Assembly (NCBI GenBank): GCA_947629545.1
Contig: CANREE010000025.1
Span: 1-33,273, forward strand
Length of the DNA: 33,273 nucleotides
Direction: 5' to 3'
DNA from: an uncultured Lachnospiraceae bacterium
GTDB taxonomy: Bacteria > Bacillota > Clostridia > Lachnospirales > Lachnospiraceae
Below are positions 1,685 to 17,483 of the stretch, piece by piece (the first letter of the stretch is position 1; the number at the start of each line of letters is the position of its first letter). The notes beneath the pieces are model-generated. The model ran no database searches. It was not told where the DNA came from and saw nothing but the letters and a program-made list of their open reading frames with translations. Position numbers and translations under genes: made by a program.

Positions 1685-1726
1685 TTCCCTCATTTCCCGC
1701 GCGCACGCACATATGCACGCGCACGT

Positions 1727-2978: not shown

Positions 2979-3076
2979 CCGCCCAGCCCTCCGGTCATAA
3001 AGATAAATGGTTTATCAAGAGAATTAATCGGGCAGCCGCCCGATCCGCAGACGCCGGCATATGCCGTATGTTTATA

Positions 3077-3358
3077 TCATTCCTTCGGCCCGCTGCCCCC
3101 TGCGGCGTCTTTCCCCGTCCTGGCTTCTTTATTATATACAGCCTGGTAATACGGGCACGAGGCATAGTTTCCGCCGTCACAGCAGAACAGGCCCATGTAG
3201 TCATGCATCTCCTGCCGGCTCTCAAACCGCAGCTGCGTCCTCATCGCGAAACCCATGTTCTCCCTGATGTTCTCGCAGGTAACCGTGTAATCCCAGCCAC
3301 CCCGCCCCTGTTTATGGGTTATGTAATACGGGCAAGCCGTTATCCGGCCGTTCGGCAT
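3077..3358 (-). CDS. Small Cys-rich phage protein, probable zinc binder
   Basis: A 93-residue protein with a repeated pattern of CPYY segments: CPYYITHK near the N-terminus, a single Cys in VTCENI, then CC and CPYYQAVY near the end. Proteins of this type are common in clostridial prophages, and the Cys pairs suggest a metal site. ATG 3358 is preferred because AAGGGGG lies about 9 bases upstream. A longer GTG-initiated frame from 3424 lacks a good ribosome binding site. It lies in the early operon between the HUH endonuclease gene and the 446-residue protein gene. The function is unknown. Confidence 0.7.
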   Translation of the reverse strand: MPNGRITACPYYITHKQGRGGWDYTVTCENIRENMGFAMRTQLRFESRQEMHDYMGLFCCDGGNYASCPYYQAVYNKEARTGKDAAGGSGPKE

Positions 3359-3450
3359 ATACCCCTGCCCCCTTCCGCCATGATGCCGGGGCCCGTACCC
3401 GGGCTCCGGCTCTATCCGTGACACATCATCATATATCCCAGCCCGTATTC

Positions 3451-4791
3451 CTACCGCCCGGGCGGTGGCCTGGCCATGGCCGCCACATATACCGATTCCT
3501 CCTGCATCCCTACCAGATCCCCGATGCTCATCTGGCCGTCAATATCCGCGTCCGCCATGCTCTCACAGATCTCCGCGATCTTCTCGATCAGCGACCTGGC
3601 CGCCTTCCTGGCAGTGATGTATTTCTCCCTGTCAAGCGCTTCAAGGACGACGTGCGCCAGCCTCTTCGCCTCCAGCACCCGCAGGTCCTCCTCCGGTTCC
3701 CCCTGCTGCCCGGCATCGGCGGGATCCTGATCCGGTTCCTGGGCATTTTCCGCCGGTTCCTGGGCATTTTCCACTGGTTTTTGTACACTTTTCCCCTGCT
3801 TTGTACCATTTCCCGATACCGCCGGTTTCGTCGACGCCGCCTTCTTACTTCCCTTTCCCGCCGCATTCACGCTCCTGTCCGGGGCCTTCGGCGCGGATCC
3901 GGCGCTGCCGGATGTCCGGATTACCCTGTCCTTCGGCTCCGTCTTCTCTTCCCGGACGGCCGCGGCGACCGGGTACGGTTCCCCGTACAGCAGCTCCCAT
4001 GCGTCCTCCACGCTCTCCCTGCTCCCGGAAGCCAGTGTCCCAAGCGTCTCCCATACGTTCATCCAGGTTTCCGCCTGCTGCTCCCCGGACCTTACCGAGC
4101 GCAGCTCCGGCAGGCCGCTGTCGCGGACGACAAGCATCACCCTCCCGACGCCCGCCACACGCGACATCATGACGATGTTCCCGCTTGGCGCCAGGATGTC
4201 CTGCGCGGCCGACTGCATGTATTTGGCATCACCGTCGGCCTGTAACTGCCACAGCCATACGGCCTCATGCATCCGCTCATACTCCGCCGGCTTCCCGTGG
4301 TAATATGCCTTCAGCATCCGGTAGAGCAGCGGCATACCGGTATCATCCGCCCGCTGCTGCTCCATCATCACCTCCATGGGCGTCACCTGCTCCTCCTCTC
4401 GGAGCTCCCGCTTCAGGTCCTGGATCTCCGCCCGCGTCGCCTCAGGCGGCACCACGTCCGCGATCTCCGGCGGCAGCGTCAGCATCTCCGCCAGCTTCGT
4501 GTAACCATATACCCGGTACTGCTCCTGCAGCACGTCCGAATACCCGCCCTCCGAATACCGGTCGTTGATCGCCATGTACCTTGACACCACGTCCTTCGTC
4601 AGCTTGTACTCCGCCGCGGCAAAATCCGCCACGAACTTATAGCCGGACGCGGCCAGCACGTCCGAATCCCTCGCCACCTTCAGCAGGTACCCGATCCGCA
4701 CAAACGACTCCGCTTCCCTCTGCAGCTCGTTCCCGAGCCTGTCCCGGAACTCCTCATAGGTTCCCTCATACTTTTTGACCACGTTATCCAT
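3451..4791 (-). CDS. Hypothetical phage/plasmid protein with disordered linker
   Basis: A 446-residue protein. The N-terminal half is helical, beginning with a segment of the type seen in clostridial mobile-element proteins: LLKVARDSDVLAASGYKFV, then AEYKLTKDVVSRYMAIN, which looks like a DNA-binding helix pair. A middle region (about residues 270-360) is low in complexity, rich in Ala, Lys, Pro and Gln, with a short internal repeat (ENAQEPAENAQEP). A C-terminal helical domain follows (VLEALDREKYITARKAARSL, IADADIDGQ-like end). ATG 4791 has GGAAGG close upstream; a GTG three bases earlier is possible. It is co-transcribed with PcfJ upstream. A role in replication or DNA binding is only a guess. 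Confidence 0.7.
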   Translation of the reverse strand: MDNVVKKYEGTYEEFRDRLGNELQREAESFVRIGYLLKVARDSDVLAASGYKFVADFAAAEYKLTKDVVSRYMAINDRYSEGGYSDVLQEQYRVYGYTKLAEMLTLPPEIADVVPPEATRAEIQDLKRELREEEQVTPMEVMMEQQRADDTGMPLLYRMLKAYYHGKPAEYERMHEAVWLWQLQADGDAKYMQSAAQDILAPSGNIVMMSRVAGVGRVMLVVRDSGLPELRSVRSGEQQAETWMNVWETLGTLASGSRESVEDAWELLYGEPYPVAAAVREEKTEPKDRVIRTSGSAGSAPKAPDRSVNAAGKGSKKAASTKPAVSGNGTKQGKSVQKPVENAQEPAENAQEPDQDPADAGQQGEPEEDLRVLEAKRLAHVVLEALDREKYITARKAARSLIEKIAEICESMADADIDGQMSIGDLVGMQEESVYVAAMARPPPGR

Positions 4792-4823
4792 CACTGCCTT
4801 CCGCTCCTTTCGCGTTATCCTCC

Positions 4824-7013: not shown

Positions 7014-7501
7014 CTTTTTCCACCCAGATAGTAGTTATTGATAATCTTCTTGGCCGTCCCCATCCCCGGGATGCCTACCGTGCACTTGCCGGCGGAAACA
7101 CCCGCCGCCTTCAGTATCGCGGGATCCACCTTGTGCTGGTGCTGGAAGCCCCACTTCAGCAGCTCCGCGATGCAGCCTGCAAGGCTCTTCCCCTTCCGCC
7201 GGACCGCCACCGCCACCTCAGGGCTGTCAATACACTGGACCTTGATGTACTCCACCCAGTCCTCCATGATCTCCGCACAGTCAACGCCCTTCGCTTCGAT
7301 CTCAATCTTCCCAATGGCCGCGGCCATGTCGTCGCACAGGTACAGCAACGCGCCTGCAGCAAACGCTTCCTCGTCATCCGCATCGATGCCGTTTTCCGCC
7401 GCCGGCACCCTAAGACCCTGCAGGTCACCTTCCCGCCTAAGGTTCACAGCCGTCTCATTGATTTCCTCCGCCGAATCAAACTCCCCAAACCGATCAAACA
7501 T
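7010..7501 (-). CDS. PcfK-like protein
   Basis: A 163-residue protein of the PcfK-like family, the usual partner of PcfJ in mobile elements. Evidence is the conserved block KSLAGCIAELLKWGFQHQHKV-like near residues 105-125 followed by a glycine-rich end with YYLGG, and the direct ATGA overlap with PcfJ. The start at 7501 is chosen because AAAGGAGA lies about 7 bases upstream; the open frame extends much further but with sequence unlike a protein. It overlaps the previous gene by 8 bases. Its biochemical role is unknown; the pairing suggests a two-protein complex. Confidence 0.8.
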   Translation of the reverse strand: MFDRFGEFDSAEEINETAVNLRREGDLQGLRVPAAENGIDADDEEAFAAGALLYLCDDMAAAIGKIEIEAKGVDCAEIMEDWVEYIKVQCIDSPEVAVAVRRKGKSLAGCIAELLKWGFQHQHKVDPAILKAAGVSAGKCTVGIPGMGTAKKIINNYYLGGKR

Positions 7502-7781
7502 CCTTATCTCCTTTCCGCCCCAGAGCCCCCGGGACCGACAGCATCTCCGCATATGATATCGTCCGGACCGGCAGGGACCTCCATGCCCCTCCGGCCACCT
7601 CCACCAGGTTCGGATATTTCCGCACGATCCGGCACGGGATCGTACGCCGCCTTGACGGCCGCACATCCGCATCCGCCGAAGCAACCGGGTAATACACCCG
7701 GTCCCCCACGCGGAGCCTGTCCCTCAGCTGGATAATCTCGTCCATTTCTTCCCTGTCCACAAGTACCTCAATCTCAGTCAT
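7494..7781 (-). CDS. Hypothetical small phage protein (beta-rich)
   Basis: A 95-residue protein starting MTEIEVLVDREEMDEI, with AGGAGG four bases before ATG 7781. A short helix is followed by strands in which GDRVYYPV, CRIVRKYPNLVEV and RSLPVRTISYAEML alternate in the manner of a small SH3-like barrel. The sequence gives no catalytic motif. It is the gene just before pcfK in the early operon and overlaps it by 8 bases. The family is not recognised; a structural or nucleic-acid binding role is possible. Confidence 0.65.
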   Translation of the reverse strand: MTEIEVLVDREEMDEIIQLRDRLRVGDRVYYPVASADADVRPSRRRTIPCRIVRKYPNLVEVAGGAWRSLPVRTISYAEMLSVPGALGRKGDKDV

Positions 7782-7794
7782 AGTTCCTCCTCGG

Positions 7795-7824
7795 TTGACA
7801 AAAGCCAGCCGCAAATGTTATAAT
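7795..7824 (+). promoter_or_regulatory. Plus-strand SigA promoter, antisense to the early operon
   Basis: TTGACA (7795-7800), 18 bases, TATAAT (7819-7824). Both hexamers are perfect but point opposite to all neighbouring genes. No ribosome binding site or plausible gene follows on the plus strand, so a short non-coding or antisense RNA is the simplest product. The match may be chance, but it lies in one of the few gene-free gaps of the operon. Confidence 0.5.
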
Positions 7825-7856
7825 GTCCTTACAATTCTTTCACTGTTCCATTTCCA

Positions 7857-7888
7857 GCCCATGCACCGGTGGCCGCCGGCGCATGGGC
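7857..7888 (+). other. Strong hairpin downstream of the antisense promoter
   Basis: GCCCATGC (7857-7864) pairs with GCATGGGC (7881-7888), and CCGG with CCGG inside, with one mismatch and a loop at 7870-7875. It starts about 33 bases after the plus-strand -10 element. There is no T-run on either strand, so it is not a standard terminator; it could be the body of a small RNA or a processing site. Confidence 0.5.
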
Positions 7889-7894
7889 CAGACT

Positions 7895-8128
7895 TTACCC
7901 TGCCGGGATCCCCTCAGGGTCGTACAGCCTCTCGGCCTTCATCCAGTCAAGCATCTCCTTCGAGATCCCCCAGTCCGCGCGGAATTTCGCCTCCCGCTCC
8001 AGCGCCGCACCGCAGTCATCACACACCAGGCCCTCGCCCGGCCAAACCTCACCCTCCGATACGTCCAGGCTGCACCCGCACCTGGCGCACCTCCGGTAAT
8101 CCGTCCGGATCCTCCTTGCGTAACCCAC
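7895..8128 (-). CDS. Small zinc-ribbon phage protein
   Basis: A 77-residue protein with two CxxC knuckles (CARCGC and CDDCG) about 20 residues apart, a classic treble-clef or zinc-ribbon spacing. The C-terminal part (KFRADWGISKEMLDWMK) is helical. It starts at GTG 8128 behind GGAGG about 9 bases upstream. It belongs to a run of small genes in the phage early operon. The zinc site suggests binding to nucleic acid or to a host protein; the exact function is unknown. Confidence 0.65.
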   Translation of the reverse strand: MGYARRIRTDYRRCARCGCSLDVSEGEVWPGEGLVCDDCGAALEREAKFRADWGISKEMLDWMKAERLYDPEGIPAG

Positions 8129-8134
8129 GTCCTT

Positions 8135-8320
8135 TCACCTCCTTCCTCCATCTTTCCCGCGCCGGCGCCGCCCGCCTTCGCGCAACGCCTTCTCGCGGCA
8201 CCACGGGCATACGTACCCTCCGGCCGGGACCTGCGCGAGCCGCGACACGCCCCATGCCAGCCCGCACTGTACACAGACCTCCCGGCGCCCGCCAGCCATA
8301 CCATCATTCTTTACACGCAT
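8135..8320 (-). CDS. Tiny zinc-finger phage protein
   Basis: A 61-residue protein with CVQCGLAWG and CPWCREKAL, two CxxC pairs 20 residues apart, and a very basic C-terminus (RRRRGKDGGRR) fit for nucleic acid contact. The start is uncertain: ATG 8320 overlaps the previous gene by 17 bases, while ATG 8299 lies just after that gene's stop and would be coupled to it. Both lack a strong ribosome binding site. It is followed within a few bases by the next zinc-ribbon gene, giving two small Cys4 proteins side by side. Confidence 0.55.
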   Translation of the reverse strand: MRVKNDGMAGGRREVCVQCGLAWGVSRLAQVPAGGYVCPWCREKALREGGRRRRGKDGGRR

Positions 8321-8525
8321 TTCCCTTGAGCCCCGCGATCATTTCCTCGAAAGATACCACAGCTTTTTCCAGTTCGACATTTACTTCGAGCTTCAGCAAA
8401 TCTCTGTCAGATCTCCCTGCGCTTATGTCGCTGACGTTAAACCTTGCTGATGCCAACCGGTGAAATTCCCGACTGGCCCGGATAAGCCTCGCGGCCAGCT
8501 CCTCATCCACTTCGATCCTTAACAT
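8304..8525 (-). CDS. Hypothetical small helical phage protein
   Basis: A 73-residue, mostly helical acidic protein (MLRIEVDEELAARLI, then KLEVNVELEKAVVSFEEMI). AAGGAGGGG lies six bases before ATG 8525, a strong ribosome binding site that supports a real gene. No known domain is recognised. It sits between the 3D-domain gene and the small zinc-finger gene in the early operon. Confidence 0.6.
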   Translation of the reverse strand: MLRIEVDEELAARLIRASREFHRLASARFNVSDISAGRSDRDLLKLEVNVELEKAVVSFEEMIAGLKGNACKE

Positions 8526-8538
8526 CCTGATCCCCTCC

Positions 8539-9216
8539 TTACTGTATGATCCACACTTCCCTGACGCAGCTCCCCGCGCCGTCCGCGAAATGCCTGGCCT
8601 CCTCGTGGGAATCCATGTACACGTCGACCCTCGCGCCCTCGATCGCCGAGTCCGTATCCTCCGCGACGTATTCCCCGTAACCGTCTATGTACACCCTGCT
8701 GCCCAGCGGGATGACTTCCGGGTCCACCGCGATGGTCCGCCCTGCCTCCGGCATCACCCCGGACGCCGTCGGCCCGCCGGCCCACCGGCCACAGCATTTC
8801 CTGCAGTTACAGTACGCGGTCAGCGTCACCTCTCCCACGCACTCCCACGCCCCGTCCTGCTGCCTCGCAGCCGTTTCTTCCACTGGCGCCGTCCCATCCG
8901 GTTGTACCGGCGCAGCTCCGGCTTCCGGGAGCACTGCCCCGTCATCCGGCTGCACGTTATCCCGGATCACGACCGGTCCCTCAGGTACCTGCACCGCCTC
9001 GGCCGTCTCAGCCACCGTCTCCGCCATCGCCTCCCGCGGCCCGGCCAGCGCCATGACCACCGCGGTCAGCGCACCTATGACCGCCAGCGTCAGCAACACC
9101 CAGCCCAGCACCCCGGCCACTGCCAGGACCAGCCTCTCCCGCCGCCTGGCCTTCCTTCGCTCCTCAATAAGCCTGTCCACACCCACGTACTCATAGTTCC
9201 GGTCAAATAACCGCAT
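8539..9216 (-). CDS. Membrane-anchored 3D-domain protein (RlpA-like barrel)
   Basis: A 225-residue protein with a basic N-terminus, one transmembrane segment (about residues 29-57), a Pro/Ala/Glu-rich spacer, and a C-terminal 3D domain (about residues 125-225). The 3D fold is shown by the TLTAYC opening, by the three aspartates that name the family (AVDP, D165; AEDTD, D187; ARVDVYM, D198) and by the IPLGSRVYIDG block. Such domains are lytic transglycosylase-like and act on peptidoglycan outside the membrane. ATG 9216 has AGGAGG eight bases upstream. A wall-active protein inside a phage early operon is unusual; it could aid lysis, entry exclusion or a conjugation-like process. Four Cys lie near the start of the domain (YCNCRKCC). 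Confidence 0.85.
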   Translation of the reverse strand: MRLFDRNYEYVGVDRLIEERRKARRRERLVLAVAGVLGWVLLTLAVIGALTAVVMALAGPREAMAETVAETAEAVQVPEGPVVIRDNVQPDDGAVLPEAGAAPVQPDGTAPVEETAARQQDGAWECVGEVTLTAYCNCRKCCGRWAGGPTASGVMPEAGRTIAVDPEVIPLGSRVYIDGYGEYVAEDTDSAIEGARVDVYMDSHEEARHFADGAGSCVREVWIIQ

Positions 9217-9256
9217 CTTACTATCCTCCTGCATATAATTACCATGCTCTTGAAAT

Positions 9257-9829
9257 TCACCTGTCCTTGGTCAGCACAACCTCAGTACCATGTCCCTGCT
9301 CGTCACCTGACCCCGCATCCGCCGTTCCATCCGTAATTACCGCATTCCCGCCACTTTCCAAAACAGGCCCATAATACCTTTCCGTGAACGCCTTCAATTC
9401 CTGCCTGTACCCATCATAGCTGATGGAATAATTCCCCAGGCTCCTCCTGGCGCTGGTCAGCGCCATAAGGATTATCGCCCGCATCATCGTCCCCTTATAA
9501 ATGCCTGAGAATTTCACACCGCCCCGCAGAATCATCTGACTGAGCGTACCAAGTAACTCCTCTGCATCATCCGGACTCATTTCGCCATATTCCTCGATAT
9601 AGGAATTGATGAGTTTTGCGTCTCTACGAAGGATAGCAACAGCAGTCTTTCTTGTTTCGGAATCCTCCCGGAGCGTTCTTTCATCATCCGTATCCTGTAC
9701 AAGTTTTACAAACGCCCGCTCACCCAAGTTCGAAAGCAGGACTTCCTTGAATTCCTCGATACTGTCAGTTGCTTCCAGTTTCCCTTCCTGATCAGCATTG
9801 GTAATCAGTAATGCATACCTTTTTCCCAT
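9257..9829 (-). CDS. Hypothetical phage protein
   Basis: A 190-residue acidic protein starting MGKRYALLITNADQEGKLEA. The middle part is helical (TVKKTAVAILRRDAK-like, then MSPDDAEELLGTLSQMIL), and the C-terminus is Gly/Thr rich and probably disordered. ATG 9829 is preferred over the GTG at 9859 because AAGGAGA lies about 10 bases upstream of it. The GTG would overlap the stop of the preceding small gene. No known domain is recognised. It is expressed within the early operon, so a regulatory or anti-host role is possible. Confidence 0.6.
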   Translation of the reverse strand: MGKRYALLITNADQEGKLEATDSIEEFKEVLLSNLGERAFVKLVQDTDDERTLREDSETRKTAVAILRRDAKLINSYIEEYGEMSPDDAEELLGTLSQMILRGGVKFSGIYKGTMMRAIILMALTSARRSLGNYSISYDGYRQELKAFTERYYGPVLESGGNAVITDGTADAGSGDEQGHGTEVVLTKDR

Positions 9830-9855
9830 CTTTATCCCATCTCCTTCCCGACGCC

Positions 9856-10005
9856 TCACGCCTGCTGCCGCTTATACCCCGCCGCCTTCATAAGCCGCTC
9901 CTGGATCACCTCGGAGACCTTTTTCCTCTCCTCAGGTGACAACTGCTCCAGCAGGACCTCCCGGCCGCCGATCTCCACATAATTAATGATCCTGTATCCT
10001 TCCAT
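9856..10005 (-). CDS. Small conserved prophage protein
   Basis: A 49-residue protein beginning MEGYRIINYVEIGG and continuing LLEQLSPEERKKVSEVIQ. Small proteins of this pattern (a short beta hairpin, a 'leucine-serine-pro-glu' turn, then one helix ending in RLMKAAGY) are common near the repressor in clostridial prophages. The start at 10005 has GGGAGG six bases upstream. It is the second gene of the leftward operon. The function is unknown. Confidence 0.7.
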   Translation of the reverse strand: MEGYRIINYVEIGGREVLLEQLSPEERKKVSEVIQERLMKAAGYKRQQA

Positions 10006-10070
10006 AGCGCCCTCCCGCTTCCATTCGTTTCAGACTATGCCGGAACGCTTGGACACCTTGCCCGGTTTCT

Positions 10071-10253
10071 TCATCCCTGCTTCATCTCCAACCCGGCCAG
10101 CCGCTGCCCAGTCTCCACTCCGGCGATAAACGTCTGCGCGAGCGCTATCAGAGTCCCCGTATCTTCCTTATTCACTGACGCAGTCGTCAGTATCCTCACA
10201 ACCTCTTCGCGCGTCATGCGCGGATCTGACGCTCCCTCCTTTGATTCCTTCAT
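10071..10253 (-). CDS. Hypothetical small phage early protein
   Basis: A 60-residue helical protein, the first gene behind the leftward promoter. It contains TREEVVRILTTASV and TLIALAQTFIAGVETGQRL, two amphipathic helices. GGGGGTGA lies about six bases before ATG 10253. Its place as the first early gene is where Cro-like or anti-repressor functions are often found, but no helix-turn-helix is visible. The function is unknown. Confidence 0.6.
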   Translation of the reverse strand: MKESKEGASDPRMTREEVVRILTTASVNKEDTGTLIALAQTFIAGVETGQRLAGLEMKQG

Positions 10254-10303
10254 CGATCATCACCCCCTTTTTGTTTCTGTAAATGCGTTTCTTTAGTTAT
10301 CAT

Positions 10304-10321
10304 GCCACCATTATAAGTGGC
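10304..10321. promoter_or_regulatory. Candidate repressor operator
   Basis: GCCAC (10304-10308) and GTGGC (10317-10321) form an inverted repeat that overlaps the -10 box of the leftward promoter. A further half-site GCCACT lies at 10376-10381, upstream of the repressor's own -35. This is the expected layout for a CI-like repressor that shuts off early genes and regulates itself. Confidence 0.55.
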
Positions 10322-10338
10322 TAAGTGTCTATTGTCAA
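10310..10338 (-). promoter_or_regulatory. Leftward early promoter
   Basis: On the minus strand TTGACA (10338-10333), exactly 17 bases, TATAAT (10315-10310). It is a perfect SigA promoter about 50 bases ahead of the first early gene. It is overlapped by the candidate operator, so it is likely silent in the lysogen. Confidence 0.85.
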
Positions 10339-10388
10339 TAGTTTTTTTGTTGCAAAATAACTTTTTGTGTACTATGCCACTTTTTCTA

Positions 10389-10417
10389 TTGACGTATTGA
10401 AACTATTCTTGTATAAT
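10389..10417 (+). promoter_or_regulatory. Repressor promoter
   Basis: TTGACG (10389-10394), 17 bases, TATAAT (10412-10417), followed by GAGGTG and the TTG start of the CI-like repressor. It is divergent from the early promoter, about 50 bases away, in the classic lysogeny switch arrangement. Confidence 0.85.
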
Positions 10418-10445
10418 CAATGCTAAGAAAGCGAGGTGATTGTTT

Positions 10446-10952
10446 TTGAAAGACCGAATAAAAAAGATCCGGCGAGAGTCTGATCTGACACAACAAGAAT
10501 TTGCTGACCGCCTGAAAATAGGTAGAAATAATATTGCTGGCTATGAAACAGGAAAACGCTCCCCCAGCGATGCAGTCATATCTTTGATTTGCAGGGAGTT
10601 TAATGTAAACGAATCCTGGCTGCGAACCGGCGAGGGTGAGGTGTTCGCCCCGGCCCCTAACACGGAGATGGAGATGCTGGCTAAGAAATACCATCTGAAC
10701 GACGACATGTGCCTACTGGTTGAGCGGATCGTTTCCTTAAAGCCTGAGCTTCAGACCGCTGTCCTTGATTTCATCATGGATACGGCCACGATCCTGATGA
10801 ACCGGCGGACGGCCGCCTCGGTTGCACCGGCCCAACAGGAGATCGACATCGACGCCGCCGTAGCAGAATATCGCCACCAGCTGGAATTAGAAGCAAGACA
10901 GGCGGCCGGATCCGCAGTTTCCGGGGATACTGTTACAAAAAAAGGGGCTTGA
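10446..10952 (+). CDS. CI-like XRE-family phage repressor
   Basis: A 168-residue transcriptional repressor. The N-terminal HTH_3 domain (about residues 4-60) includes LTQQEFADRL, the recognition helix region GRNNIAGYETGKRSPSD and the motif LICREFNV. A C-terminal part with no peptidase signature follows and ends in an Ala/Gly tail. The start is TTG 10446: the paralog at 12740 begins MKDRI, matching this codon, and GAGGTG lies about eight bases upstream. It faces the leftward operon across the promoter switch, so it most likely maintains lysogeny. It lacks the LexA/S24 domain, so induction may depend on the XRE-ImmA/IrrE protein encoded downstream. The final 17 codons are echoed in the following gene. 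Confidence 0.88.
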   Translation: MKDRIKKIRRESDLTQQEFADRLKIGRNNIAGYETGKRSPSDAVISLICREFNVNESWLRTGEGEVFAPAPNTEMEMLAKKYHLNDDMCLLVERIVSLKPELQTAVLDFIMDTATILMNRRTAASVAPAQQEIDIDAAVAEYRHQLELEARQAAGSAVSGDTVTKKGA

Positions 10953-10959
10953 TCCATTA
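10899..10959 (+). repeat. Direct repeat copy 1 (3' end of repressor gene)
   Basis: This 61-base segment aligns without gaps to 11833-11893. The first 19 bases match at 17 positions, and the last 10 bases, which include the stop codon, match fully. Both encode a tail starting QAAGSA and ending in a basic pair, one residue, then Ala-stop. Confidence 0.7.
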
Positions 10960-10980
10960 ACTCATTTTATGGAGATACGG

Positions 10981-11886
10981 ATGAAAAGAATTGCTATAAT
11001 CCTCCTGTTTGTTTTTGCTTTTTTTCTCCCTATAATTGCATATGCCCATCCGGGTGACACAGATGAAAATGGCGGGCATTACGACCATTCTACCGGAGAA
11101 TATCATTATCATCACGGATATCCCGCCCATCAACATCCAAATGGCATATGCCCATACGATTATGACGACAGAACTGGCGAAAACTCGGGAAGCCATTCAT
11201 CTTCCAGCTCTACAATGCAAAAAGCAGGCTTTGCTTTTCCTACACCTTCCATTATGATATGTGGAGGCTTAGGGATTCTGGTGATAGTAGCAACATTAAT
11301 CATCTTTCATTTAAAAGCAAATATATATGACAGCGAGTATCATCAAAAAGAATTGGATAAAGAGATATCTTCTTTGCGAAAAGAACTAAAGAACACACAG
11401 GCACTATATAACCAGGCCAAAAGTGAATCCGATACCCTTCACGGTTATATTTCTGATCTGGAGGAACATATTAAACAAATGCCCTTTGGACAGCTTGGTG
11501 CTATAAGCGAAGACGTCTCGTCCCTTACTACGGGTGACATATTTAAACTGGCTGGTGTTCCGAACGGAGTTACCTTCGATAATGACTATTTGCCACACTA
11601 TTACTCGATTCCATCCGTAGAAAGAAATATGCATGTGTACATTTGCAAAGCTGGGGCATGTTATCATCGCCAACTCGGCTGTTGTGGAGCAAATAGAGAG
11701 ATTCATTTATTTATTGCAGCTGAAAACTACCGACCATGTAAACACTGTATACCTGACGTAGCATTAGACTATAAAATACCTGATTGGTATTATAGGTACC
11801 TGCAATTAATTGCAGTTGCTCAACGCCAGAATCAGGCCGCCGGATCTGCAGCTTTACCCACTTCCGCAGACAGAAGAGAAGCATGA
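10981..11886 (+). CDS. Signal-peptide YHYH protein with membrane segment and Cys domain
   Basis: A 301-residue protein. A signal peptide ends at IAYA (residue 22). The outside part is rich in His, with GGHYDHSTGEYHYHHG and PAHQHPNGICPY, the 'YHYH' motif of secreted Firmicutes proteins that may bind metal. A transmembrane segment (about 91-112) is followed by a coiled coil (about 120-166). A C-terminal Cys/His domain has ACYHRQLGCCG then YRPCKHCIP, resembling the Ada-type zinc-binding domain. ATG 10981 is supported by GGAGA about six bases upstream. The predicted topology is outside-TM-cytoplasm. It lies just behind the repressor, so it is likely expressed in the lysogen. Base use is more AT-rich than its surroundings, suggesting separate acquisition. 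Its role is unknown; metal sensing or exclusion of other phages are options. Confidence 0.7.
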   Translation: MKRIAIILLFVFAFFLPIIAYAHPGDTDENGGHYDHSTGEYHYHHGYPAHQHPNGICPYDYDDRTGENSGSHSSSSSTMQKAGFAFPTPSIMICGGLGILVIVATLIIFHLKANIYDSEYHQKELDKEISSLRKELKNTQALYNQAKSESDTLHGYISDLEEHIKQMPFGQLGAISEDVSSLTTGDIFKLAGVPNGVTFDNDYLPHYYSIPSVERNMHVYICKAGACYHRQLGCCGANREIHLFIAAENYRPCKHCIPDVALDYKIPDWYYRYLQLIAVAQRQNQAAGSAALPTSADRREA

Positions 11887-11893
11887 TCCATTA
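11833..11893 (+). repeat. Direct repeat copy 2 (3' end of YHYH gene)
   Basis: This is the second copy of the 61-base segment at 10899-10959, in the same frame and with the same stop position. The shared ends and diverged middle suggest that the YHYH gene was inserted with, or captured, a copy of the repressor gene's 3' end. Confidence 0.7.
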
Positions 11894-11994
11894 GTGGAGA
11901 ATGGATGTCCTTATTCAAGAACCCTTTAATAGTACCCATTCGCTTATTATTGTATTAAGAGAATTCGCAATTTTTTTTAATAAGGGAGGTCCTT

Positions 11995-12258
11995 ATGCCG
12001 GAGATCAGCAGATTTTACGGAATCGTAATTAAGATGATTTTCAACGATAATGACAAGCATCATAAGCCCCATGTCCATGTCTATTATGGGGATTGCGAAG
12101 CGAGTATCGCATTGGATGGGGAAGTACTGGAAGGCCGTATACCCCTTAAGCAGTACCGGATGGTTTCCGGCTGGATGGCCGTCCATGAAGACGAACTTTA
12201 CGCTGCCTGGAACAAGGCTGTGAAAAACGAACATTTTGACAAAATCCCTCCGCTGTAA
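11995..12258 (+). CDS. DUF4160 protein
   Basis: An 87-residue DUF4160 protein, recognised by FYGIVIKMIFNDNDKHHKPHVHVYYG and a following EASIALDGEVLEGRIP block, then a C-terminal helix with WMAVHEDELYAAWNKA. In many bacteria DUF4160 genes are paired with DUF2442 genes, as here, and the pair has been proposed to behave like a toxin-antitoxin unit; the activity has not been established to my knowledge. ATG 11995 follows GGGAGG by five bases. The gap before it (11887-11994) is AT-rich and holds no clear gene. Confidence 0.8.
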   Translation: MPEISRFYGIVIKMIFNDNDKHHKPHVHVYYGDCEASIALDGEVLEGRIPLKQYRMVSGWMAVHEDELYAAWNKAVKNEHFDKIPPL

Positions 12259-12286
12259 GCGGATGCTTCCAGAAAGGAGATTTCCC

Positions 12287-12736
12287 ATGTTTATATCTAA
12301 CGGAATGGTATACGGCGGAAAGCCTGATGTCCCTGTGCGGATCGCATCCGTGCAGATCCTGGACGACATGATGATGATCCTCACATTTACTACCGGGGAG
12401 CGCAGGATATTCGACGCCACAACCCTCTGCGGGCCGGCGTATGAACCGCTGCAGGATCCTGCCGTGTTCCGGGCGGCCTGTCTCGATCACGGCATGGTCA
12501 CATGGCAGGACGGGGAGATTGATTGTGCGCCGGAATATATGTATGACCACAGTTTTGAGTATTCTGCTGGTGAGATGGCTATCTCTCTCTCAGAAGAACA
12601 AATTGCCGAAATCGAAGCTGCAAAAAAAATGCCCATCGTGTATGACGAGGATTCTCCGGAGCTGACGCCTGCAATGGAAAAGGCTTTCCTATTAGCGGCA
12701 AGGAACCGGAATAGATACAAAAAGGAAGTATCTTAA
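12287..12736 (+). CDS. DUF2442 protein with C-terminal extension
   Basis: A 149-residue protein. Residues about 15-90 form the DUF2442 fold (ILDDMMMILTFTTGERRIFD, then VTWQDGEIDCAPEYMYDH). A C-terminal extension of about 50 residues ends MPIVYDEDSPELTPAMEKAF, a segment also seen in small antitoxin-like proteins. Typical DUF2442 proteins are about 80-90 residues, so this one looks like a fusion. ATG 12287 has AAAGGAGA eight bases upstream. It follows the DUF4160 gene by 28 bases and precedes the second XRE gene by three bases, so all three are likely one transcript. Confidence 0.75.
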   Translation: MFISNGMVYGGKPDVPVRIASVQILDDMMMILTFTTGERRIFDATTLCGPAYEPLQDPAVFRAACLDHGMVTWQDGEIDCAPEYMYDHSFEYSAGEMAISLSEEQIAEIEAAKKMPIVYDEDSPELTPAMEKAFLLAARNRNRYKKEVS

Positions 12737-12739
12737 ATT

Positions 12740-13195
12740 ATGAAAGATAGAATTAGAGAGATAAGGAAAACCCTTAACTTGACACAGCAAGAATTTGCAG
12801 ATCGGCTTGGCATTAAACGTGGTGGGATTGCAAATTATGAAATTGGAAGAAATGACCCTTCAGATTCCGTTATCTCGTTGATATGTAGAGAATTTAATGT
12901 AAATGAATCCTGGCTGAGAACCGGGGAGGGCGAGATGCTGAATGCCCCCTCGAATGCACCAATGGATATCCGGATGAGCGCAGTAAAAGAAAGAATCATC
13001 GGCGCGGTCACGATCATGAGTGAGGACGATGCAGAAAATATCTGGCAGCTGATCCAGTCCGCTTTTGCTCTTAAGAATGTCCCTGTTACCGAGCCGGACG
13101 AATGGGATCAGCAGATGCTCCGTGAAATCGAATCCGATCCGGACTGCCATGAGTTCGTCCCCGCCAGCCAGGCCATGAAGGAACTGGGACTGTAA
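12740..13195 (+). CDS. XRE-family regulator, paralog of the repressor, antitoxin-like tail
   Basis: A 151-residue protein with an N-terminal HTH domain nearly identical to the main repressor at several stretches (LTQQEFADRL, LICREFNV, LRTGEGE), so the two genes are paralogs within one element. Residues about 115-151 (EWDQQMLREIESDPDCHEF then MKELGL) resemble the C-terminal tails of small Firmicutes antitoxins. It starts three bases after the DUF2442 stop with only a weak ribosome binding site, which suggests translational coupling. It may autoregulate the DUF4160/DUF2442 unit, or tune the lysogeny switch by binding the same operators. Confidence 0.78.
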   Translation: MKDRIREIRKTLNLTQQEFADRLGIKRGGIANYEIGRNDPSDSVISLICREFNVNESWLRTGEGEMLNAPSNAPMDIRMSAVKERIIGAVTIMSEDDAENIWQLIQSAFALKNVPVTEPDEWDQQMLREIESDPDCHEFVPASQAMKELGL

Positions 13196-13279
13196 GAGTA
13201 AGATGAACGGTTCTACAGAGCAACATAATCGCCGAAAAAAGAGAATACTTGACGATTTTGTATTTTTTACAAAAGAATC

Positions 13280-13309
13280 TTGCCTTTATTGGTGTTAATG
13301 TGATATAAT
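13280..13309 (+). promoter_or_regulatory. Promoter for the unknown-protein/ImmA pair
   Basis: TTGCCT (13280-13285), 18 bases, TATAAT (13304-13309) with an extended -10 TG at 13301-13302. It lies about 34 bases before the TTG start at 13343, in an AT-rich gap after the second XRE gene. It gives the next two genes their own transcript. Confidence 0.7.
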
Positions 13310-13342
13310 ACTTCACATAAAATACGTAAAGGAGTGATTCTC

Positions 13343-13978
13343 TTGTTCGACAAGGAGCTTTTTGACCGCAATTTTTCATTTGAATTCAAATTCAATGTAG
13401 CCAGGAATATCCGTACTGCCGTACAGGCCTACGACGAATTCATGGCGAAGAACCGGTCATTTTTGAAGGATGCGCAGGATCTCCACGGAAGAATCCTGGC
13501 GTATGCGGTTGGCAGACAGTTCCTCCTGGCTTCCGCTGAATCAGCTCCTTCTTACCTGGTCTCCCAGGAAGAAGTAAATGCCTTTAGGGCAAAGGCTGTT
13601 TTCCTGCACACCGACGACTATGTGACAAATGTCTGCCGTACCGCCAAGGCCGGACTGCTTCCGTGCAGGGCCGGCTATAAACTCCGGCTGGCAGAAGGAA
13701 ACCGGGAATATGATGCACAGATGGAATTCTTTCAAGATCCCATTTCCCGGCAGCTGCTTCCTGCCATGCCTAAGAAATATGCCATCATCGGCTACCGTTA
13801 TGAAGATGGTATTATCCGGCATTTGACCCTGCTGGTGCCCGACTGGCGCTTTGAGAATGTGATTTACAGTGAATCTCTAATCGGAACGATCCAGGACACT
13901 TACCGCTACATCCCGACAGAAATAGTAGAAGAAGATGTCGCGAAGCTGAGAGAAGATATTCGTAAGATCATTGATTAA
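13343..13978 (+). CDS. Unknown protein paired with XRE-ImmA/IrrE gene
   Basis: A 211-residue protein starting at TTG 13343 (GGAG eight bases upstream; an in-frame GTG nine bases earlier overlaps that site). The N-terminal half is helical (FKFNVARNIRTAVQAYDEF, GRILAYAVGRQFLL). The C-terminal half has alternating strands with KYAIIGYRYEDGIIRHLTLLVPDWRFENVIY. There is no signal peptide, membrane segment or recognisable catalytic motif. It ends 22 bases before the XRE-ImmA/IrrE gene and shares its promoter, so the two likely act together, for example as a regulated effector and its regulator/protease. I do not recognise the family. Confidence 0.7.
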   Translation: MFDKELFDRNFSFEFKFNVARNIRTAVQAYDEFMAKNRSFLKDAQDLHGRILAYAVGRQFLLASAESAPSYLVSQEEVNAFRAKAVFLHTDDYVTNVCRTAKAGLLPCRAGYKLRLAEGNREYDAQMEFFQDPISRQLLPAMPKKYAIIGYRYEDGIIRHLTLLVPDWRFENVIYSESLIGTIQDTYRYIPTEIVEEDVAKLREDIRKIID

Positions 13979-14000
13979 TTTATACTTAGGTGGTGGAGAT

Positions 14001-15146
14001 ATGTTAACTCAGAAAGATATCATCCCTTACAGGATCAGTCAGGCCCGTCTGTCACGCGGCCTGTCCATGAATGAACTGGCCGAACTGGTTGATGTATCAA
14101 AACAGGCCATTTCACAATTTGAAACCGGGAAGACCTATCCGCTCGACGGTACCCTGAACAGGATCGCGGCCGCCCTGCACTATTCTCCTGACTTTTTCAG
14201 GAAACCAGTCCATCCCAGTGCTTCCATGACCCGAAGCGTATTCTACCGCAGCAACAAGACGGCCCGGCAGAAGGACCTGAAGGCCGCGGAGGCAAAGATC
14301 GAGCTCCTTCGGGATATTAATGAATTCCTGTCCGAGTACATTGACTTCCCTCCCGTTAATCTTCCGGATGTCGATTACCGCTATAACCCTTCGGATGTGA
14401 TCAGCAGCGAGGAAATCGAATTCTTCGCCTGCACCCTGCGGGACTACTGGAAACTCGGACGCGGCCCGATCAATAATCTGATGAATGTCGTGCAGCGTAA
14501 CGGTATCGTCGTTTCCACGACACATTTCAGTCTTGTCAAGCTGGATGGACTGTCAGAATGGTATAACGATACTCCCTACATTTTCATGAGCCGTGACAAG
14601 GATACCAACTGCCGGGTACGCTTCGGCATTGCCCACGAGCTGGGGCATCTGCTGATGCACGCAGGATCCGTCCCTCCGGACGACATTACAGATGGTACTG
14701 TCCATAAAAAACTGGAAGATGAGGCGAACCGTTTCGCATCCGCCTTCCTTCTCCCCAGAGAGTCCTTCAGCAGGGATGTTCTTAATTCCAGTATCGACCA
14801 TTTTATACAGCTGAAGGCCAAATGGAAGGTATCCATATCAGCCATGATCTTCCGATGTGAAGAACTGGGGATCCTGAGTGAGAACCAGATAAAATACCTT
14901 AAGAACCAGATGACTCAACGCAACGCCTGGCGTCATGAGCCTCTCGATAGCGAAATGCCTGTGGAACGCCCGTTTGCCCATAAGCAGGCCGTCACCCTCC
15001 TGCTCGACAACAACATTATACAGGCGTCTGACTTTGTGAATGCAATCGGCTGTATGCCTGACGAGTTGGAAGAATACTGCTGCCTGCCCAAAGGAATGCT
15101 TTCACCGCATGGCAGTGCCCAGATCGTCCAGCTGCGGCCAAGGTAG
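14001..15146 (+). CDS. XRE-ImmA/IrrE family metallopeptidase regulator
   Basis: A 381-residue protein with an N-terminal HTH domain (about 8-65: LSMNELAELVDVSKQAISQFETG) and a C-terminal ImmA/IrrE (M78) zinc peptidase domain. The zinc site is HELGH (212-216) with the third ligand in DEANRFASAFLLP (about E241). ImmA-type enzymes cleave phage repressors upon DNA damage, as in ICEBs1 of Bacillus subtilis; here the peptidase is fused to its own DNA-binding domain. ATG 14001 follows GGTGG. Its likely targets are one of the CI-like repressors in this element or the unknown partner gene product; that link is inferred. Confidence 0.88.
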   Translation: MLTQKDIIPYRISQARLSRGLSMNELAELVDVSKQAISQFETGKTYPLDGTLNRIAAALHYSPDFFRKPVHPSASMTRSVFYRSNKTARQKDLKAAEAKIELLRDINEFLSEYIDFPPVNLPDVDYRYNPSDVISSEEIEFFACTLRDYWKLGRGPINNLMNVVQRNGIVVSTTHFSLVKLDGLSEWYNDTPYIFMSRDKDTNCRVRFGIAHELGHLLMHAGSVPPDDITDGTVHKKLEDEANRFASAFLLPRESFSRDVLNSSIDHFIQLKAKWKVSISAMIFRCEELGILSENQIKYLKNQMTQRNAWRHEPLDSEMPVERPFAHKQAVTLLLDNNIIQASDFVNAIGCMPDELEEYCCLPKGMLSPHGSAQIVQLRPR

Positions 15147-15174
15147 ACACTTTCTATATTAATTTCAAAGAGCA

Positions 15175-15209
15175 AATCCGCCCGACGTTACCGGCGCCAG
15201 GCGGATTGC
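15175..15209. repeat. Inverted repeat after the XRE-ImmA gene
   Basis: AATCCGCC (15175-15182) pairs with GGCGGATT (15200-15207), with GC flanks also able to pair in part. No T-run follows on the plus strand, so it is only a weak terminator candidate; it may instead be a protein-binding site near the recombinase gene. Confidence 0.5.
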
Positions 15210-15231
15210 ACAGATACTATTGCGGACCAGA

Positions 15232-15273
15232 TGTCCGTATAATACCGCTCCATCTGTATTATACCATCGGACA
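15232..15273. repeat. Large interrupted palindrome upstream of the recombinase
   Basis: Outer arms TGTCC (15232-15236) and GGACA (15269-15273) flank inner arms GTATAATAC (15237-15245) and GTATTATAC (15256-15264). The symmetry is nearly perfect across 42 bases. It could be an operator for control of the recombinase, or a hairpin in its leader. Its location 70-110 bases before the recombinase start supports a regulatory role. Confidence 0.65.
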
Positions 15274-15291
15274 CCTGATCCTGCAAGAGGT

Positions 15292-15320
15292 GTATTTTTT
15301 ATACCCTGAAATCATACTTT
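15292..15320 (+). promoter_or_regulatory. Candidate SigE-type promoter of the recombinase
   Basis: GTATTTT (15292-15298), 14 bases, CATACTTT (15313-15320). This fits the mother-cell SigE pattern (roughly KMATATT, 14 bases, CATACANT) at 5 of 7 and most of the -10 positions. A transcript would start near 15326, at the edge of the AAAAGGGAG ribosome binding site, leaving a very short leader. The match is moderate and might be chance. Confidence 0.35.
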
Positions 15321-15341
15321 TCAGAAAAGGGAGATGGTATT

Positions 15342-16796
15342 ATGGCAGAAACAAACACGTTGGAGATCGGCGCGGCCTACGTCCGCGTCAGCACCGACGA
15401 CCAGACGGAGCTGTCGCCGGACGCGCAGATCCGGCTGATTCTGGAAGCTGCGAAGTCGGACGGCTTCGTGATCCCGAAGGACTACATATTCATCGAGAGC
15501 CGCGGTATCTCCGGCCGGAAGGCGGACAACCGTCCGGCGTTCCAGCGGATGATCGCCACAGCGAAGTCCCAGACTCCGGCGCCGTTCAAGCGGCTCTATC
15601 TGTGGAAGTTCTCCCGTTTCGCCCGCAACCAGGACGAAAGCACCTTCTACAAGAGCATCCTCCGGAAGAAATGCGGCGTGGAGATCAAAAGCGTCTCCGA
15701 ACCCATCGCGGAAGGCATGTTCGGCCGCCTGATCGAGTCCATCATCGAGTGGTTCGACGAATACTATTCCTATAACCTGTCCGGCGAGGTGAAGCGCGGC
15801 ATGCAAGAGAAGGCGCTGCGCAACGGCTACCAGCTTGTCCCGCCCCTGGGATACAACGCCGTCGGGGAAGGAAAGCCGTTCGTGATCGATGACGACAAGT
15901 ACCGGATCGTCGAATACATCTTCCACGCCTATCATGACGGCCTGGACATGACCGCCATCAGCCGGGAATGCAACCGCCGCGGCTGGCTGACCCGGCGCGG
16001 CAATCCGTTTGAGCGCAGGACCGTCCTGCGGATCCTGCAGAACCGTTTCTACGCAGGTACCGTGGAATGGAATGGATACACATTCGACGGCTCCCATGAA
16101 TGCCGGCCATCCGTCACGGAGGTCTTCGACGCCTGTCAGGAGCGTATGTCGCGGGAATACCGGCCGGCACAGCGCCGGGAAGTATCCTCCTGCAGACACT
16201 GGCTCTCCGGCCTGCTGCGCTGCTCCATCTGCGGCGCGTCCCTGTCCATCCACAGGGACAAAAACATCCAGCGCACCCGCGTGTTCCAGTGCTGGAAGTA
16301 CATGAAAGGGTTCCACAGAGGATCCTCCAGCATAACCGAGAAATACGCCGTGTCTGCGGTCATGAATTCCCTGGAGGAGATCATCGGCACTGGTGTGATC
16401 GAATTTGACCACACGGAGAAACGCAGCGACGAAATGCACACGGAAGAACAGATCCTCAAAGACGCCCTGTCGCGTCTGGAGATCAAGGAATCCCGGATCC
16501 GGGACGCCTATGAGAATGGGATCGATACCCTGGAAGAATACAGGGCCAACAAGGAGCGCCTCGCCAATGAACGCGAGAACCTCTTACGGGAATATGACAG
16601 CCTGAAGGAGCGTTACCAGGCCGAGGACGACACCCCTCCGGTGGAGGAGGTCCTCGCCCGGATCAAGAATGTTTACGACCTTATTTGCAACCCGGATGTA
16701 GGGGACGATGTGAAGGGTGTGGCGATCCGCAGTGTCCTGAAGGAAATCATCTGGGACCGGTCCAGGAAGGAATTTACCTTCCATTATTACGCATAG
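15342..16796 (+). CDS. Large serine recombinase (integrase/excisionase)
   Basis: A 484-residue large serine recombinase. The N-terminal catalytic domain has the nucleophile in YVRVSTDDQ (S17, with R15 nearby) and a second active-site stretch LWKFSRFARNQDE. A recombinase domain follows (QLVPPLGYN, then FERRTVLRILQNRFYAGT), then a zinc-ribbon (C294, C297, C317, perhaps H325) and a coiled coil (about 340-420) used in integration/excision control. AAAAGGGAG lies about eight bases before ATG 15342. Its stop is 53 bases from the attachment junction, the normal placement. No separate recombination directionality factor is recognised in the window; one could be among the small early genes. Confidence 0.95.
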   Translation: MAETNTLEIGAAYVRVSTDDQTELSPDAQIRLILEAAKSDGFVIPKDYIFIESRGISGRKADNRPAFQRMIATAKSQTPAPFKRLYLWKFSRFARNQDESTFYKSILRKKCGVEIKSVSEPIAEGMFGRLIESIIEWFDEYYSYNLSGEVKRGMQEKALRNGYQLVPPLGYNAVGEGKPFVIDDDKYRIVEYIFHAYHDGLDMTAISRECNRRGWLTRRGNPFERRTVLRILQNRFYAGTVEWNGYTFDGSHECRPSVTEVFDACQERMSREYRPAQRREVSSCRHWLSGLLRCSICGASLSIHRDKNIQRTRVFQCWKYMKGFHRGSSSITEKYAVSAVMNSLEEIIGTGVIEFDHTEKRSDEMHTEEQILKDALSRLEIKESRIRDAYENGIDTLEEYRANKERLANERENLLREYDSLKERYQAEDDTPPVEEVLARIKNVYDLICNPDVGDDVKGVAIRSVLKEIIWDRSRKEFTFHYYA

Positions 16797-16798
16797 GA

Positions 16799-16846
16799 AG
16801 GCGAGAAAGCGCAGAAATACGTACTTTTCTAATGTCGCCTGTTTTT
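16799..16846 (+). terminator. Terminator of the recombinase gene
   Basis: AGGCGA (16799-16804) pairs with TCGCCT (16835-16840), extended inside by GAAA/TTTC, and is followed by TTTTT (16842-16846). It ends only a few bases before the cotJC junction. Confidence 0.7.
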
Positions 16847-16868
16847 GCACTACGGCCCGCCATACTGG
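16847..16868. other. Right attachment junction of the element in cotJC
   Basis: The cotJC reading frame follows the family pattern through SQYGGP and then meets a stop at 16850-16852, where the usual GEL-type continuation should be. The crossover is therefore within about 16850-16860, in or next to GGCGGGCCG on the minus strand. A small imperfect palindrome, CCATACTGG (16860-16868), lies beside it. The exact core cannot be set without the left end or an empty site. Confidence 0.75.
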
Positions 16869-16948
16869 CTGGCAATAAACTGCGCCAGCTGCGGATTCGG
16901 CGTCGTGATCTTCACCGGGTACTGTAAGCGTTTCTCATATCTCCACAT
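16850..16948 (-). pseudogene. cotJC: cotJC, 5' fragment interrupted by the element
   Basis: CotJC is a spore coat protein of the manganese-catalase family, made in the mother cell. Here only 32 codons remain: MWRYEKRLQYPVKI, then TPNPQLAQFIASQYGGP, which is the CotJC N-terminus. The frame is cut by the prophage end and stops. Full-length CotJC is roughly 190 residues, so the rest should lie at the far end of the element, outside the window. It starts four bases after cotJB, with AAGGAGG upstream, so it was the third gene of the normal cotJABC operon. If the element excises precisely in the mother cell, the gene would be restored. Confidence 0.9.
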
Positions 16949-16951: not shown

Positions 16952-17209
16952 CTAGCGTCCTCCTTCCCAAGGCCACGGTCCCTGAATCCAGTTCCAGCAG
17001 CCGCTGGCCGAATTTACTTTGTCCACCATCAGCGGGCCGCAGGCAGACTGATAGGCGTCCATCGCCTCGCGACGCGCACGCGCCATTGCCTGATAGTAGG
17101 CGAAAGCCTGCCGGTCGCAGGGATGGGTGTCCAGATACAGAAGCACGTCATCCATCGCGAAGCTGGCCTGATCGATTATATTCAAAAGCTGTGGGCAATT
17201 CTCTTTCAT
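16952..17209 (-). CDS. cotJB: Spore coat protein CotJB
   Basis: An 85-residue CotJB protein. Helical N-terminus (LLNIIDQASFAMDDVLLYLDTHP), then FAYYQAMARARREAMDAYQ and the typical ending WNWIQGPWPWEGG. CotJB is a small coat component encoded between cotJA and cotJC and is thought to assemble with them. The start at 17209 overlaps the cotJA stop (ATGA), with GGAGGTG seven bases upstream. The gene is intact although its downstream partner is interrupted. Confidence 0.93.
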   Translation of the reverse strand: MKENCPQLLNIIDQASFAMDDVLLYLDTHPCDRQAFAYYQAMARARREAMDAYQSACGPLMVDKVNSASGCWNWIQGPWPWEGGR

Positions 17210-17409
17210 GCGGCGCACCTCCCCATGACAAACGGAAGGTCCAGCTCCGGGAAAATGGTTCCGCGGTCCAGGGCCTGTTCCATGATGTAAGTCTGGCCCC
17301 ATTGCTGTGGGGGCACGTATCCCATGCCGATCGAGATCTGCATGCTGCCGGGAATGATGTTCGGACAGCTGATCGCGGACGGCGACGGGATTGTTAAGGA
17401 ACTATCCAT
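17206..17409 (-). CDS. cotJA: Spore coat-associated protein CotJA
   Basis: A 67-residue CotJA protein, recognised by MGYVPPQQWGQTYIMEQALD followed by GTIFPELDLPF, the family's hallmark. ATG 17409 is chosen because GAGGAG lies about 10 bases upstream. It is the first gene of the cotJ operon. In Bacillus subtilis the operon is transcribed by SigE in the mother cell, and a SigE-like -10 is visible about 40 bases upstream here. Confidence 0.9.
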   Translation of the reverse strand: MDSSLTIPSPSAISCPNIIPGSMQISIGMGYVPPQQWGQTYIMEQALDRGTIFPELDLPFVMGRCAA

Positions 17410-17447
17410 AAAACGGTTTCTCCTCTCATTCATTGTCTGATAATAGT

Positions 17448-17455
17448 AGTCTATG
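17448..17455 (-). promoter_or_regulatory. SigE-like -10 element of the cotJ operon
   Basis: CATAGACT on the minus strand, about 39 bases ahead of cotJA. The same octamer lies ahead of spoIID (20151-20158). The -35 region (TTCACG area) fits SigE poorly, so the promoter call rests mainly on the -10 and on the known SigE control of cotJ. Confidence 0.45.
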
Positions 17456-17483
17456 TAGGGGCACGCATTTCGTGAATTCCCCC

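Follow-up and report, generated by a model that had tools for sequence, protein, structure and literature searches.

The window, a 33,273-nucleotide stretch of DNA from an uncultured Lachnospiraceae bacterium, is contig C25 of a genome assembly of 162 contigs that is 83% complete. Its cotJA and cotJB genes are unbroken, as the original prediction had stated, and cotJC halts after 32 codons (16948 down to 16853, minus strand) at the edge of foreign DNA, in which its frame meets a TAG codon (Table 1). The first gene in the foreign DNA, convergent with cotJC, codes for a large serine recombinase and was rightly placed at the element edge, its stop at 16796 lying 56 bp from the attachment core shared by the two element ends. 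A search of the genome with the Mn-catalase model returned two places, C25:16853-16948 (model positions 1 to 32) and C66:3283-3747 (positions 29 to 197). The second is the missing 3′ part of cotJC, which had been expected at the other end of the element; on contig C66, it adjoins phage endolysin and holin genes. It starts at Gly31 (GGPDGEI) and not, as had been proposed, at a "GEL" block. A second cotJC, raised beforehand as a sign that the split copy might be a dead remnant, was not found in this 83% complete genome.

Table 1. Features of the window (positions in nucleotides; a dot marks features given without strand)
Feature	Position	Strand	Basis
Prophage DNA, recombinase side of element	1..16857	.	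Collinearity with the G043 prophage
49-aa conserved small protein, candidate recombination directionality factor	9856..10005	-	HMM match 1.6e-22; AlphaFold2
CATAGTCTGA, weak mother-cell-type -10-like block, without the AC of a -35	10030..10039	-	Upstream listing; pattern test
Phage-type HTH repressor	12740..13195	+	PHROGs phrog_8, 3.9e-19
HTH regulator with metalloprotease part	13971..15146	+	PHROGs phrog_2439, phrog_87; 2.3e-98 and 4.6e-16
Large serine recombinase, 484 aa	15342..16796	+	Pfam Resolvase, Recombinase, Zn-ribbon domains
Element-side attachment arm	16834..16852	.	CCTGTTTTTGCA on + strand at 16838-16849; sequence and listing of element ends
Attachment core AGTATGGCGGGCCG, 14 bp, common to C25 and C66 ends	16853..16866	-	End comparison
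cotJC codons 1-31, 5′ part of split gene	16856..16948	-	Pfam Mn_catalase positions 1-31, E 1e-7; codon 32 and TAG next
cotJB, unbroken	16955..17209	-	Pfam CotJB 2.5e-29
cotJA, unbroken	17209..17409	-	Pfam CotJA 2.8e-16
Probable cotJ promoter, AC-N16-CATAGACTA	17447..17474	-	Upstream listing

Joining the C25 and C66 pieces at the core yields one in-frame CotJC of 217 aa. The uninterrupted cotJC region of a relative (G034, locus L085) matches window positions 16853-18065 at 94% and C66 positions 797-3749 at 96%, and the overlap of the two matches is the core. Over codons 33 to 195, the C66 piece differs from the intact gene of this relative by 16 synonymous changes and no amino-acid change. The window's cotJC is a sporulation gene that an element with matching ends interrupts in frame. 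By consensus, the probable promoter of the cotJ operon is of a mother-cell sigma type.

The element is a prophage. A relative, G043, carries a contiguous prophage of about 40 kb on a single contig, collinear with both C25 and C66; by comparison with it, the rest of the window's prophage lies on C66, plus about 7.8 kb that are unplaced. Beyond the cotJC piece, C66 encodes the endolysin, the holin, a 2616-aa phage-family protein, and an internal virion protein, and the element as a whole holds a temperate-phage gene set between its attachment (att) sites, including virion, lysis, and repressor genes. We assume that the regulator with a metalloprotease part is of the ImmA/IrrE type. The recombinase was 35.6% identical to its best match in a phage collection and matched two distant solved resolvase domains in the PDB. 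Upstream of its gene, at 15290-15320, the sequence GTGTATTTT-N13-CATACTTTT resembles the consensus of a sigma-E promoter.

The repressor, lysis, and virion genes fit an ordinary prophage that inactivates a dispensable coat gene, so that the spores of lysogens would lack this CotJC and excision would occur upon lytic induction only. We nevertheless judge this explanation unlikely in light of the comparative data presented below, some of which also speak for it.

Large serine recombinases split cotJC in three regions, at Gly31 (site A), near codons 62 to 67 (site B), and near codons 134 to 136 (site C). We searched for complementary cotJC pieces at one site in a genome, which defines a split gene here. 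In a sample of 120 Lachnospiraceae genomes, 25 of the 76 that bear cotJC were split (11 at site A, 12 at site B, and 5 at site C, with three genomes split at two sites), and six more held a single piece. The window's genus gave 15 split, 2 single-piece, and 8 genomes intact at the cotJ1 operon among the 25 with cotJC (26 searched). By the same rule, 17 of 25 genomes were split in the Lacrimispora-type genus (16 without G049, whose pieces abut). A sample of 118 genomes from across the class gave 20 of 84, spread over 14 families (19 without G234, which has a weak piece and a contig end; G235, whose pieces abut, was left out of this count).

Contig breaks can mimic a split gene; many of these genomes are metagenome bins, and the pieces lie on separate contigs in the window's genome and in 15 of the 25 split Lachnospiraceae genomes. 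However, an assembly or binning artefact is hardly credible as the general explanation, as the other 10 have the two pieces and an intervening insert on a single contig, as do the complete chromosomes behind loci L027 and L036, and the break points fall at three fixed places. Furthermore, 1 of 81 genomes in that sample had the control gene SpoIIIAE in two pieces, and one further copy carried an in-frame stop.

Recombinases other than those at Gly31 split cotJC near codons 62-63, 64-67, and 134-136, and five site-B enzymes are 24 to 25% identical to that of the window. By Pfam, the domains of the window's recombinase recur in one enzyme from site B and one from site C, and also in that of L074 (codons 64-67), whose Zn-ribbon match is below the cut-off. 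Two of the three regions coincide with the sequences TEELAH and AAEQKAR, presumably metal-ligand motifs. Some gene copies in the sampled Clostridia are cut at two sites. On two long contigs, G294:C1 and G208:C1, the cotJC pieces lie about 227 kb and about 157 kb apart, beyond the usual size of a prophage. A site-C recombinase (L072:3187-4734) carries a DUF4368 domain, which has been linked to multi-targeting recombinases (PMC10083194).

Large serine recombinases related to that of the window occupy the same codon, Gly31, in many Clostridia. A recombinase scan found 47 loci in genomes and 14 in viral contigs; the 59 loci analyzed are the set without known duplicates (one contig had been fetched twice) and include the G-genome stretches. 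The 3′ end of the recombinase gene adjoins the 5′ piece of cotJC in 30 of these loci; 2 are unclear, and the 15 that adjoin neither piece include contig ends, a tandem copy, and contigs bearing a joined attP. In the remaining 12, among them L118, L101, L013, and L018, it adjoins the 3′ piece, and the gene lies on the 3′ side of the split cotJC, even though the recombinase of L118 is 94% identical.

The arms at the element ends are inverted copies around the core (TTATCTGTTTTT / AAAAACAGATAA in the clearest case). In L031, L033, and L038, the two ends differ beside the GG of codon 31, and the GG of codon 30 is also common to the ends. The attP arms of the viral contig L058 are symmetric about the GG of codon 31, arguing that this dinucleotide, at window positions 16857-16858, is the likely crossover point.

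A strict pattern search of the viral contigs for a joined attP gave no match, and a looser pattern applied to 118 fetched loci gave one, L058; a second case, L061, was recognized by eye and by alignment. In L058, the recombinase end of the Hungatella hathewayi DSM 13479 element runs as far as the core and is followed from there by the other element end; the two ends sit 86.7 kb apart in the chromosome of that strain. In L061, the recombinase end of a 5-kb L. celerecrescens element is joined to 46 bp of its other end. The attP arms of these elements of relatives are perfect over 12 bp in L058 and imperfect in L061. The search of viral contigs and fetched loci found no joined attP of the window's own element. 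The L058 and L061 junctions indicate that exact joining of the ends at the core occurs in nature for two related elements. They do not show its timing, as an attP junction also arises in a lytic phage, and to that extent they are in keeping with an ordinary prophage as well.

We next turn to the coding state of the pieces. The 3′ pieces had no stop over codons 33 to 195 in 24 of 24 sequences, a set chosen for matches reaching codon 195 at ≥67% identity, which badly decayed pieces could not enter. For dN/dS, we left out L073 (G022; at a contig end, apparently intact upstream) and the duplicates L075 and L044. The 24 usable pairs of the remaining 21 sequences had a median of 0.023 (range, 0 to 0.172), and the 3′ pieces of nine genomes with minimal elements (see below) had a median of 0.022 over 10 pairs, compared with 0.035 for intact cotJ1 and 0.064 for intact cotJ2. 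The 5′ pieces, with 31 codons, gave a higher median, 0.11. Purifying selection on a gene that is split in the germ line is most simply explained if a long-split cotJC is expressed whole at some stage, and a median near 0.02 speaks against inactivation by an ordinary prophage.

The paralogue cotJ2 bears on this argument. In the window's genus, the fetched split pieces are of the cotJ1 kind, as far as identity tells, and all 12 fetched cotJ2 copies (62 to 69% identical, picked as full-length matches) are unbroken. The split copy need not be essential, because many relatives hold an intact cotJ2, which also fits a dispensable coat gene; yet strong purifying selection acts on the split copy even in relatives that have such a paralogue. 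Genome G011 (L031) showed the split copy only, and no full-length cotJC was found in 21 of the 25 split Lachnospiraceae genomes, which are drafts, a further point against a prophage that merely inactivates a spare gene. Since 8 of 25 genomes of the window's genus keep an intact cotJ1, gain and loss of the element must be frequent, and part of the selection may predate the split. Recent insertion or exchange can similarly explain part of it, least in the clade with minimal elements.

Selection might also act on pieces that are never joined, the 3′ piece serving on its own as an N-truncated CotJC or both pieces working together as a split protein. A possible in-frame start upstream, present in 20 of 33 3′ pieces, would permit this. 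The other 13 lack any start codon from the upstream stop to codon 31, and all 32 site-A 5′ pieces read through codons 1 to 31 without a stop (duplicates left out of both counts). Together with the intact state of the core and the recombinase, these counts make expression without DNA joining very improbable, and we favor reconstruction of the gene.

Ten loci (L025, L029, L031 to L036, L038, and L045) have their site-A pieces on one contig, only 2470 to 3413 bp apart; in L034 and L035, cotJC is cut again further on. All ten encode a recombinase and a small protein, and these minimal elements of 2.5 to 3.5 kb carry little else and no phage structural genes. In L031, the stop codon of the recombinase abuts the core. 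Ten Lacrimispora-type elements (12 entries minus 2 duplicates) also encode a PdaC/DUF3298-like protein, assigned by Pfam on the L036 copy only (L036:9035-9715), and nine of the ten a protein of 53 to 86 residues, without a Pfam match in the L036 copy. In genome G009, L075 and L028 show tandem minimal-element copies with cotJAB and the cotJC 5′ block repeated, which may be a real amplification or an assembly error.

In a recombinase tree without duplicate loci, the Lacrimispora-type elements form one clade of 11 rows (100/99), nine of which are labelled minimal; the nearest rows outside it are the 86.7-kb H. hathewayi DSM 13479 element and the viral contig L058. The minimal label requires four changes on this tree. 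The persistence of minimal elements across a recombinase clade speaks against an ordinary prophage. Divergence of the recombinase tracks that of the cotJC 3′ piece, with Spearman coefficients of 0.89 for dN (28 pairs) and 0.82 for dS (pairs with usable dS), statistics that ignore shared ancestry. Some pairs are discordant: L029/L038 has a dS of 1.14 for the recombinase, 0.17 for cotJB, and 0.51 for cotJC, and L029/L034 has a dS of 0.27 for the recombinase versus 0.62 for cotJB. These disagreements indicate that elements or flanks have been exchanged, which would suit an ordinary prophage. The element thus looks old in the Lacrimispora-type group, with some exchange.

In 42 of the 59 loci, the small protein is encoded on the opposite strand to the recombinase (the L040 match is weak, E 0.008), and the family members have 45 to 71 residues as cut in alignment A1. 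Among the 17 loci without it, the recombinase is less than 40% identical in 8, and the stretch upstream of the recombinase is shorter than 4.2 kb in 8 of the other 9. An AlphaFold2 model of the window's protein shows a hairpin and a helix (pLDDT 88.9, pTM 0.57). It had no match in the PDB, in Pfam, or in phage records, and 15 of 30 family members matched a PHROG of unknown function. Its position, size, and conservation make it a candidate recombination directionality factor.

We then analyzed the regions upstream of the small gene, leaving out duplicate loci. The pattern AC-N15-18-CATANNNT is present in 26 of 41 (200 shuffles: mean 0.9, maximum 4), and CATACA[ACT]T in 19 of 41 (shuffle mean 0.3); these sequences share ancestry and we picked the patterns with the sequences in view, so the 41 regions do not amount to independent tests. 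The strict sigma-K pattern AC-N16-18-CATANNNTA occurs in 2 of 41 (shuffle mean 0.2, maximum 3). For sigma-E and sigma-K, we assumed general consensus forms, and the window's own copy has the -10-like block only (Table 1). The cotJA upstream regions of the window's genus have a similar block, CATAnnnTA, and a GGMAACAAG block upstream of the small genes resembles, by eye, the KRTAACARK box of Clostridioides difficile. A sigma-70 promoter scan of window positions 9800-10200 found nothing. The window's genome has a SpoIIID gene above the curated cut-off and a sigma-K-like gene below it (279.7 versus 298.65 bits). A mother-cell-type pattern in 26 of 41 regions argues against excision confined to lytic induction.

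That many related spore-formers have cotJC interrupted in one of three regions, and yet maintain both halves in a usable state, suggests removal of the insert in the mother cell. We consider it probable that, as the original prediction proposed, the mother cell excises the prophage at sporulation to rebuild cotJC, in the manner of skin and SPbeta. A temperate phage would have entered the cotJ operon at an attB site in the Gly31 codon of cotJC, with its large serine recombinase carrying out the integration, and the growing bacterium would keep the gene split. During sporulation, sigma-E or sigma-K of the mother cell, possibly together with SpoIIID, would turn on the small element-encoded protein, which would switch the recombinase from integration to excision. 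Recombination of attL with attR at the GG dinucleotide would then release the element as a circle and rebuild an in-frame cotJC where the coat is made. Because the mother cell dies, the spore lineage would keep the element. In Lacrimispora-type genomes and elsewhere, the recombinase and small-protein unit would have shrunk to 2.5 to 3.5 kb with loss of the phage structural genes. The DNA itself shows the split gene, its in-frame core, the recombinase, a conserved small gene, minimal elements, selection on the split pieces, and, in two viral contigs, joined attP ends; from these we infer the role of the small protein, its mother-cell expression, and excision during sporulation.

The window element looks, and probably works, like skin and SPbeta. 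Skin, which interrupts sigK in Bacillus subtilis and C. difficile, likewise has a large serine recombinase inside and splits a mother-cell gene in frame; its target is a sigma factor, whereas here it is a coat protein of the Mn-catalase family, with three insertion regions in one gene and minimal forms of 2.5 kb. In C. difficile, the directionality factor of skin is the 72-aa CD1234, under the control of sigma-E and of SpoIIID, with the box KRTAACARK (PMC5025042). SPbeta, in spsM of B. subtilis, is also a prophage in a spore-surface gene. Its small factor is the 58-aa SprB, to which the candidate factor here may correspond; sprB pairs a perfect -10 of the sigma-E/K type with an imperfect -35 (PMC4191935). 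An engineered SPmini with sprA and sprB alone still excises (PMC4191935). In contrast, small units comparable to SPmini are natural at cotJC, the gene and the recombinase group are different, and excision is a prediction.

Other gene-intervening elements in sporulation genes are gin in gerE, vfbin in spoVFB, and yin in yabG (PMC5595907, PMC10747680); the main text of these two articles does not name cotJC. Compared with them, insertions in cotJC are common among the sampled Clostridia, where some copies of the gene are cut twice. The phi027 prophage of C. difficile has its attachment site near cotG, the gene for a CotJC-like coat protein (PMC12122855). Unlike the split cotJC, cotG lies downstream of attR, and the portion of that article covered here describes no interruption of it. 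The term "cotJ" is absent from the main text of PMC10083194, and PMC3533761 names cotJC three times, never about interruption. A search of titles and abstract beginnings in the open literature, most subscription papers and all bioRxiv preprints lying outside its range, turned up no article about an interrupted cotJC. As far as the open literature shows, what appears to be new is cotJC as a target, how often it is split, the presence of three regions of insertion, and minimal units that occur naturally.

We lean, if only slightly, toward a broader reading in which cotJC would be a class-wide hub of programmed DNA splicing in Clostridia. Distant large serine recombinases would have colonized its three regions repeatedly, phages of several lineages would have been whittled down to "DNA introns" of a recombinase and a directionality factor that largely stay with their hosts, and the twice-cut copies would need two removals in the mother cell. 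If the proposed excision is true, developmental gene rearrangement would be common in gut spore-formers, beyond a handful of Bacillus and Clostridioides cases, and the choice by phages of a gene needed only in a dying cell would be explained. The elements would provide natural minimal recombinase/factor pairs with known att sites, and one could test whether they set the timing of coat assembly or are simply tolerated. Gene surveys might then wrongly record cotJC as truncated or missing in about one-third (25/76) of the cotJC-bearing Lachnospiraceae sampled.

Several small elements carry additional genes. A 3.9-kb site-A element (L074, genome G004) encodes, about 3.3 to 3.8 kb in, a 170-aa protein with the C-terminal DNA-binding domain of Spo0A (Pfam 1e-26). 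The 5-kb site-A element of L076 (genome G006) encodes a LysM-domain protein (Pfam, first 250 residues) and a 90-aa protein that looks coat-like by eye. A site-B element holds an AbiEii toxin gene (L070:4379-5889; Pfam 1.8e-44), preceded by a gene in the antitoxin position that has no Pfam match; this pair could act as an addiction module.
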